The notes beneath the pieces are model-generated. The model did no database searches, was not told the DNA's origin, and saw only the letters and a list, made by a program, of their open reading frames with translations. A stretch of DNA of 23,662 bases from a virus. Positions within the stretch are counted from its first letter, which is position 1; every line of letters begins with the position of its first letter. The stretch is taken from the IMG/VR virus record IMGVR_UViG_3300043410_002039, positions 1 to 23,662 of that record; one strand, given 5' to 3'. Both the position numbers and the translations under genes were made by a program. Shown one piece after another: positions 20,722 through 22,200 of this stretch.

Positions 20722-21069
20722 ATGCACAAACTAACAGAAGTAAACTCAGAGGAAAGAACAGCTATATGCGAAGTCTGTGGTCCTGTATCCATTCGTAATA
20801 GAGGAAAGAAATCAAATGGATACCAACGATGGAGATGTGCAGTAAAAGGATTACAGTTTGACTATTCTTATAAAAGACCGTATAGAAAATTTGTATCTCA
20901 AGTTTGTCAAATATGTGGGTTTGTTCCAGAAGATCTTTGTCAATTAGATGTAGATCATATTGACGGAAATAGAAAAAATAACGATCCATCTAATCTTCAG
21001 ACATTGTGTGCCAACTGTCACAGACTCAAGACAAAGCGTAACAAGGACTATAAAATTTCGACGGTATAA
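20722..21069 (+). CDS. HNH endonuclease with extra zinc knuckle, leaderless
   Basis: 115 residues. An N-terminal Cys set (CEVC at 16-19, a later WRC at 37-39) is a second zinc site, as in some homing endonucleases. CQIC (62-65), LDVDHIDGNRKNN (75-87, catalytic Asp78-His79) and CANCHRLKTKRNKDY (96-110) form the HNH fold. It is probably a homing or nicking enzyme. The gene borders the 860-base gene-free region: it could have invaded there or could serve replication or packaging from it. No Shine-Dalgarno. Confidence 0.9.
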   Translation: MHKLTEVNSEERTAICEVCGPVSIRNRGKKSNGYQRWRCAVKGLQFDYSYKRPYRKFVSQVCQICGFVPEDLCQLDVDHIDGNRKNNDPSNLQTLCANCHRLKTKRNKDYKISTV

Positions 21070-21226
21070 GAAAAACTATCCCCCATTACCTATATAAACA
21101 CCTATAGAAACACCTTGTCCTGATGTTTGGATACAGAGGATAGCCCCAATATATAGGTCCTCAGATAGCCTCTGAAGGCTTCCTAGACCCCTTTGAGAGA
21201 CATATTCATCTGACTGAGATATAGAG

Positions 21227-21246
21227 TTATACACAGGCTGTGGATA
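21227..21246. repeat. DnaA-box-like inverted pair 1
   Basis: TTATACACA (21227-21235) followed by CTGTGGATA (21238-21246), the complement with one change. The bacterial consensus DnaA box is TTATCCACA; each half differs by one base. A second such pair lies at 21884-21892 and 21907-21915. Confidence 0.6.
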
Positions 21247-21275
21247 TCTTTGAGATGAAGTGTTTGACAGTCCAC

Positions 21276-21546
21276 TATATATAGGGGCATCGTAATGTCC
21301 AAACCACAACATATGGCACTTGACAAACACCCAAACATGTGCTACAACCATGCCCAAACCACCATATCTAGTATCTACCCCCCCTAAACACCACAATATC
21401 TAGTATTTGTTTATCCCCAAACACATTGTTTTTCTATCAAAACATAACAAATTTGTAATAAAACGTGTAAAAAATAAGCTATTTTCTTTACATATCAGGG
21501 AAATGTGTAAAGTGTGTTTATATATAGGGTATTTATATATAGGGGG
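21276..21546 (+). repeat. TATATATAGGG boxes
   Basis: TATATATAGGGG at 21276-21287 and two copies 15 bases apart at 21518-21529 and 21533-21544. A shorter TATATAGG is at 21150-21157. The latter two give a phased tandem repeat. Confidence 0.6.
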
Positions 21547-21612
21547 ATCAGGAGACATCTTCGTAATACCTCCAAACATATATACCAAACAATCCTATTT
21601 GACATCTGCTGC

Positions 21613-21851
21613 TTTCGGGGGTATTAAACAAGAGATCGTAATACTACCTATATAAGTAATGCATTAATAGTATAAAGCTTATAGGTATAGAGAGTATAAA
21701 ACATAGTTTGATGAAGTATTCCATACCCTCCAATTTAGCAAACATATGTTTCGGGATTATTTCTGATTCGTTCGTAATGTGTTAAATATATTTTATACAA
21801 ATTGTACAGAATAGGAAACACTTTCGGGAAAAATTGTTTGGTGTTCGTAAT
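21613..21851 (+). repeat. Three TTTCGGG-N16-TCGTAAT elements with fixed spacing
   Basis: Copy 1: 21613-21619 and 21636-21642. Copy 2: 21749-21755 and 21772-21778. Copy 3: 21822-21828 and 21845-21851. Each has exactly 16 bases between the half-sites, and the spacers are unrelated. A weaker fourth (TATAGGG, 16 bases, TCGTAAT) is at 21538-21567. The layout is that of a -35/-10 promoter with a non-standard specificity, or of a two-site protein-binding element. Confidence 0.8.
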
Positions 21852-21892
21852 AGAGTATATTTCAATTTTGTCTCGGGCCACAGTTATACACA

Positions 21893-21926
21893 GAAAAATC
21901 CCCCACCTGTGGATAGGTGAGGGATT
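21893..21926 (-). terminator. Terminator of the leftward small-gene operon
   Basis: On the minus strand AATCCCTCACCT pairs with AGGTGGGGGATT around ATCCAC (12 pairs, one mismatch), followed by TTTTCTG. It follows the stop at 21940. The stem and loop contain half of the second DnaA-box-like pair. Confidence 0.8.
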
Positions 21927-21939
21927 AGTCTTTGTTTAG

Positions 21940-22200
21940 TTAAGCTGCTTCTGCCAGAATCTCGTCTAGAAATTCCCAACCCTTGTCTTCGTCAATACCA
22001 AGACCAGAAAGCAACAGGCTGAAGGCTTCCTCAATAAACTTTGCGGCTTGCTCTGTCTGTTTTACAATCCCATTAGAGATAGCATAGGCAAGAGGCAGAC
22101 CCAAATCGTTGTATTCGATGAAGTCTTTGAATTCCCCATCGTTACGATATGTGAGCCATACGTCACCAAGGATTTCACACTTGTTCTCAAATGATGTCAT
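21940..22200 (-). CDS. Conserved-looking acidic phage protein
   Basis: 86 residues from the ATG at 22200, preceded by AAGGAGGAACGAA; the longer frame to 22236 lacks such a site. Acidic: CEILGDVWLTYRNDGEFKD, then FIEYNDLGLPLAYAISNG, ending with DEDKGWEFLDEILAEA. The YNDLGLPLAYAI stretch has the look of a conserved actinophage protein family, function unknown to me. Last gene of the leftward transcript. Confidence 0.82.
   Translation of the reverse strand: MTSFENKCEILGDVWLTYRNDGEFKDFIEYNDLGLPLAYAISNGIVKQTEQAAKFIEEAFSLLLSGLGIDEDKGWEFLDEILAEAA

Follow-up and report, generated by a model that had tools for sequence, protein, structure and literature searches.

The three TTTCGGG-N16-TCGTAAT elements in a gene-free region of the analysed DNA (the window, a virus record of 23,662 bases) are best explained as copies of an asymmetric two-part operator for a putative regulator, clustered in an origin-like terminal region; in our estimate this explanation has about an even chance of being correct. 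At the level of sequence, a family of such sites, its clustering in the gene-free region that most likely corresponds to the terminal-repeat junction and, in related phages, its placement on or directly 5' of sigma-70-like promoters in helical phase with the -10 box are established. Each copy (read leftward: TTACGAA, approximately 16 bp, CCCGAAA) would be the binding site for one protein touching the DNA at two places about 23 bp apart. The candidate protein would regulate leftward, probably early, small genes: promoters with their -35 box inside the site would be repressed, those located just downstream of the site contacted or activated, and the array beside the DnaA-type boxes may represent its main loading or control site in the origin-like terminal region. 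No description of early-gene control in large terminal-repeat actinophages was found in the literature searched; the site family, common to environmental phages and the cultured Streptomyces phages Samisti12 and Gilson, provides a defined DNA bait and test phages for the regulator and marks a probable origin-like control region beside the terminal repeat.

Array copies in the window

The window carries a WhiB-like gene and a ribonucleotide reductase beta subunit with closest matches in Gordonia and Mycobacterium phages, and is therefore an actinophage fragment. Its last rightward gene ends at 21069, and the leftward block starts with the gene ending at 21940; the A+T-rich region in between and its borders comprise the following features:

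21070-21939, no strand: gene-free region between the convergent gene blocks, most likely corresponding to the unique/terminal-repeat junction of Samisti12
21227-21235, plus strand: DnaA-box-like TTATACACA, then TGTGGATA
21290-21296, plus strand: lone TCGTAAT half-site, 3' of TATATATAGGGG, with counterparts in relatives
21538-21567, plus strand: degenerate copy TATAGGG-N16-TCGTAAT, 2 mismatches, 12.7 bits on the matrix described below
21613-21642, plus strand: element copy 1, TTTCGGG-N16-TCGTAAT (leftward ATTACGA-N16-CCCGAAA), exact match, at the same place in 5 relatives
21749-21778, plus strand: element copy 2, TTTCGGG-N16-TCGTAAT, exact match
21822-21851, plus strand: element copy 3, TTTCGGG-N16-TCGTAAT, exact match
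21884-21892, plus strand: DnaA-box-like TTATACACA, with TGTGGATAG at about 21908
21897-21926, minus strand: intrinsic terminator of the leftward gene block, 12-bp stem and T-run
21940-22200, minus strand: last gene of the leftward block, with relatives in 17 of the 17 loci compared

An earlier sequence-only reading of this DNA had reported three exact copies and a degenerate fourth one in a region free of genes, and both were recovered as described; the gene-free region lies between convergent genes. TTTCGGG occurs 3 times in the 23.7 kb, both strands counted, each time followed by N16-TCGTAAT, and none of 300 dinucleotide shuffles of the window contained an exact element. Of the degenerate copy, relatives retain the TATATAGGGG part only, without its TCGTAAT, as seen in the alignment. 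The spacers, which had been called unrelated, do differ between the copies, but five relatives retain most of the spacer found in the site at 21613. An inverted repeat in 21613-21736 pairs GGGGGTAT of copy 1 with ATACCCTCC some 110 bases further on and recurs in most of the aligned relatives.

The distances from copy to copy are irregular (136 and 73 bp in the window; 120, 83 and 37 bp in the related locus L128); helical phasing between array copies was rejected, as the window distances fit a 10.5 bp period and those of L128 fail to do so. Neither at the class A nor at the class B distance (promoter classes defined below) was a convincing leftward -10 box found for the three window copies, the best candidate near them being a TACAAT approximately 14 bp beyond copy 3 without a -35 box. 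In the 1.7 kb of the leftward block inside the window there were no single sites; most of the block lies beyond the window end. The window copies are array copies, and function is less certain for the array than for the single sites, because a convincing -10 box beside the window copies is missing and the greater part of the leftward block is cut off by the window end.

A site family at the probable terminal-repeat junction

Relatives were gathered by two scans of viral contigs, one with the exact pattern and one with a neighbouring protein; both led to one contig (L005/L053) with copies in the same convergent gap, and the presence of the motif in close relatives, named beforehand as a test, was confirmed. 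Clusters of relaxed copies were found in many further contigs, on one strand per contig without exception; a weaker relative locus (L006) contained no site. The matrix A-TTTSGGGGAAAA-N-GGTTCGTAAT, built from 84 seed sites in related viral contigs, comprises two conserved heptamers with a variable spacer between them. It detected 180 sites in 17 loci (window included) versus 1 in the reversed sequences (1 match at 9 bits in approximately 0.3 Mb), a count that is partly circular as these loci served to train the matrix; the matches in Samisti12 and Gilson are out of sample. The half-site gap proposed to be exactly 16 bases is so in all three window copies, but family-wide it amounts to 16 bases in 81 cases and 15 in 19. 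In near-complete records (92-116 kb) the sites were confined to the region of the leftward block. Along the genome axis, the orientation of the sites is constant, also across subfamilies. The window copies are accordingly placed by their sequence in a large family of probable protein-binding sites, found at the corresponding place in many related phages. A description of the motif was not found in the literature searched, and a DNA-level search of cultured phages with the window region returned HNH-gene matches only.

The leftward block includes a gene of 340 residues (DUF932-like, as judged from its sequence) with its best cultured relatives in Streptomyces BE-type phages, where these are situated in the direct terminal repeat of approximately 11 kb (PMC5764925). 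The layout of Samisti12 matches that of the window: its rightward genes end at 122,611, followed by a gene-free stretch and the leftward repeat genes; given its length of 10,666 bp, the terminal repeat begins at 123,045, within the gene-free stretch. The element array of Samisti12 is located just past this position (scored copies within the repeat, 262 and 644 bp away from the left end as sequenced), and the rest of the genome yielded no matrix matches; when five BE phages are aligned, the blocks of the terminus that stay invariant include TCGTAAA half-sites. Based on the shared layout, the position of the array and the invariant half-sites, the gene-free region of the window most likely marks, by homology, the corresponding junction. 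Two further features of the Samisti12 terminus are a long, strongly conserved stem (GTCCCTGGGG...CCCCCAGGGAC, with an inner hairpin; L145:780-850) near the end of the BE leftward repeat genes, without Rfam match, and a terminal-repeat protein with a ribosomal L7/L12 C-terminal-like domain (L145:2417-2857).

DnaA-type boxes are nine-fold denser in the array regions than elsewhere (1.9/kb, 48 in 25 kb, versus 0.21/kb, 60 in 283 kb) and often occur there in groups of 3-5 boxes spaced 11-21 bp apart. Such clusters were found in the window (21227-21250 and 21884-21915), at L136:2956-3045, L137:3793-3837 and L157:25999-26030, suggesting an oriC-like phage region; the gene-free region of Gilson has an array of two elements together with TGTGGATAA boxes, and in the Samisti12 terminus no DnaA boxes were seen by eye. 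An origin-like role of the array region appears plausible because of this nine-fold enrichment.

Single sites on leftward promoters of the relatives

According to gene calls from a simple purpose-made caller, single sites were present in 66 of 167 leftward intergenic gaps of at least 90 bp, in 3 of 62 gaps of 40-89 bp and in none of 153 gaps below 40 bp, and 11 of 159 sites were positioned inside predicted genes. In the window's relatives the sites of the leftward block are always antisense to the block genes; read leftward, as TTACGAA-N-CCCGAAA, the element straddles or abuts sigma-70-like leftward promoters. In class A, TTACGAA is followed by TTGACA or TTGACT, then by CCCGAAA and, four or five bases on, by the -10 box, so that the -35 box lies inside the spacer, in most cases exactly 17 bp before the -10 box; some class A genes are apparently leaderless. 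In class B, the end of the element adjoins a promoter whose spacer contains ATGTCGGTGGT. The -35 boxes of class A match the consensus better than those of class B (4.4/6 versus 3.5/6, P 0.008), which suits repression of class A and assistance of class B promoters, the sign of the effect being a guess.

The distance from the element to the -10 box follows a period of 10.5-11 bp (R 0.48-0.52 for 29 gene families), a value reached in 0 of 5000 random draws, the promoter modules being partly duplicated between genes and the test therefore not fully independent. This periodicity points to a putative protein located on the same face of the DNA as the leftward RNA polymerase. Array copies, too, occupy such a position in other contigs: in L139 (6960) and L137 (4399) they are placed on the class A promoter of a small leftward gene.

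The ATGTCGGTGGT module is also found as a second promoter module in L129, L130, L133 and L136 (e.g. L130:8563-8823), where it lies in the -35/-10 spacer (TTGACAATGTCGGTGGTNNNNNTATAAT) and almost only on the leftward strand; it is probably the site of another regulator. The array regions of L137 (4173-4355), L139 (6725-6907), L143 (4802-5053) and L132 (6507-6722) encode a small conserved NLWYAFTAVTGISKLFSYTP-like protein with an apparently leaderless mRNA; none was seen in the window.

Alternative readings and known systems

The sequence-only reading had left the choice between a rightward, ECF-like promoter and the site of a two-domain protein or an iteron-like site; the second is better supported. 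Were the elements rightward promoters of unusual specificity (-35 TTTSGGGGAAA, -10 TTCGTAAT) for a divergent sigma-type factor from phage or host, the leftward early genes would be covered by antisense or non-coding transcripts and their promoters occluded. We consider this unlikely, although two unrelated heptamers 16 or 15 bp apart have a sigma-like geometry, in agreement with the box spacing of about 16-18 bp in sigma promoters. A position upstream of, and pointing into, their own genes was found only in Gilson, a member of another subfamily (Loccivirinae), and in Blueeyedbeauty: in Gilson the element lies in sense just 3' of stop codons, with a rightward gene or a tRNA shortly after it; the Blueeyedbeauty variant, whose half-sites are 14 bases apart, occupies similar gaps; and in both phages 15-80 bp separate the sites from the rightward genes and tRNAs downstream. 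In the window clade and in Samisti12, by contrast, rightward genes are free of sites. Relative to the genes, the orientation is thus opposite in Loccivirinae and the window clade, whereas along the genome it is conserved; as a consequence, the reading as a promoter of the adjacent gene is weakened in both groups. Moreover, helical phasing refers to the -10 boxes of the opposite, leftward strand, and in Loccivirinae the hairpin arms flank TTCGTAA on both sides, so that the 5' arm would escape transcription from such a promoter. In 12 related records, mostly fragmentary ones, no Sigma70_r2 or Sigma70_r4 domain scored over the cut-off, a result compatible with a divergent or host factor. A protein-binding site is therefore preferred in view of the site-free rightward genes, the phasing to the leftward -10 box, the reversed orientation in Loccivirinae and the lack of a sigma-70 domain over the cut-off. 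That the elements are promoters of a sigma-like phage factor, with terminal arrays, and single copies that overlap many of the early promoters, firing antisense RNA and occluding these promoters, appears decidedly unlikely; if true, back-to-back overlapping promoters would form a genome-wide early shut-off switch.

On the iteron reading, the array would be where the initiator binds within a phage replication origin of the terminal region, and the promoter copies would be autoregulatory. The A+T-rich array region, its grouped DnaA-type boxes and the combination of array and boxes in Gilson agree with this explanation; it is nevertheless quite unlikely, given that the copies lack the regular, helically phased arrangement of iterons, that many single sites are located at promoters up to approximately 12 kb off, that no initiator was found, and that no boxes were seen by eye in the Samisti12 terminus. 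Terminal-repeat or packaging signals, comparable to the terminase-binding repeats of cosB, would account for the copies close to the left end of Samisti12 within its terminal repeat and for the constant orientation along the genome axis, but hardly for single copies at promoters, kilobases off and helically phased, and are highly improbable.

The operator model does not explain the Loccivirinae sites, which are in sense, in short gaps after stop codons and often in hairpins. Most single sites of this subfamily fold as hairpins with TTCGTAA in or near the loop, usually followed by CAAGCTT; intergenic hairpins in L161 and L157 (e.g. L161:3197-3240 and 26065-26110), often of the same composition, are possible processing or termination signals, and Loccivirinae may use the element sequence for another purpose. 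In the window clade, stable or conserved hairpins were absent and the sites had no hairpin tendency (mean z -0.02 and -0.29), and the Rfam search gave no match except tRNA. An RNA element was rejected for the window clade, which has neither hairpin nor Rfam family, the strong alignment-fold z-scores in the gene-free region not being element-specific.

As to the protein that would bind the operator, a search covering the HTH_3 family gave nothing over the cut-off in the 12 related records, and Lsr2 (PF11774) was not found in these records. WhiB is present in near-complete records, but nothing ties it to the element. The 'DNA binding protein' gp31 of Samisti12 was likewise rejected, being ferritin-like and without a good relative in the site-bearing records.

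Among known systems, cluster BE1 Streptomyces phages (Stanwilliamsviridae) share the gene order (convergent gene-free region, leftward small genes, DUF932-like gene; PMC5764925) and the element array at the terminus; that study covers the repeats and their genes, whereas a description of the element was not found in the literature searched. ECF or alternative sigma promoters likewise possess two unrelated short boxes 15-16 bp apart and a CGT in the presumed -10 box; the window-clade sites differ in being antisense to the adjoining genes instead of upstream of rightward ones, and no sigma-70 region 2 or region 4 domain exceeded the cut-off among the 12 related records. The iterons of plasmid and phage origins with DnaA boxes resemble the array as same-strand repeats beside DnaA-type clusters in an A+T-rich gene-free region, but the present copies are irregularly spaced, bipartite and spread over the promoters of a long gene block. 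The L5-type operator/stoperator system relies on a monomeric protein whose two DNA-binding domains recognise an asymmetric 13-mer, located at promoters and between genes in an orientation tied to transcription (PMC9283540). The asymmetric, one-orientation sites at early promoters and intergenic gaps of L5 and TipsytheTRex (cluster A mycobacteriophages; PMC9283540) have their counterpart in the elements described here. L5 sites, however, are contiguous 13-mers of temperate phages, whereas here two heptamers are separated by 16 or 15 bp, arrays occur in a terminal gene-free region, the phages are large and without detected immunity repressor, and the gene-relative orientation differs between subfamilies. 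The L5-type system is the closest analogue: the present sites would at most work like it and are not members, because they lack the contiguous 13-mer.
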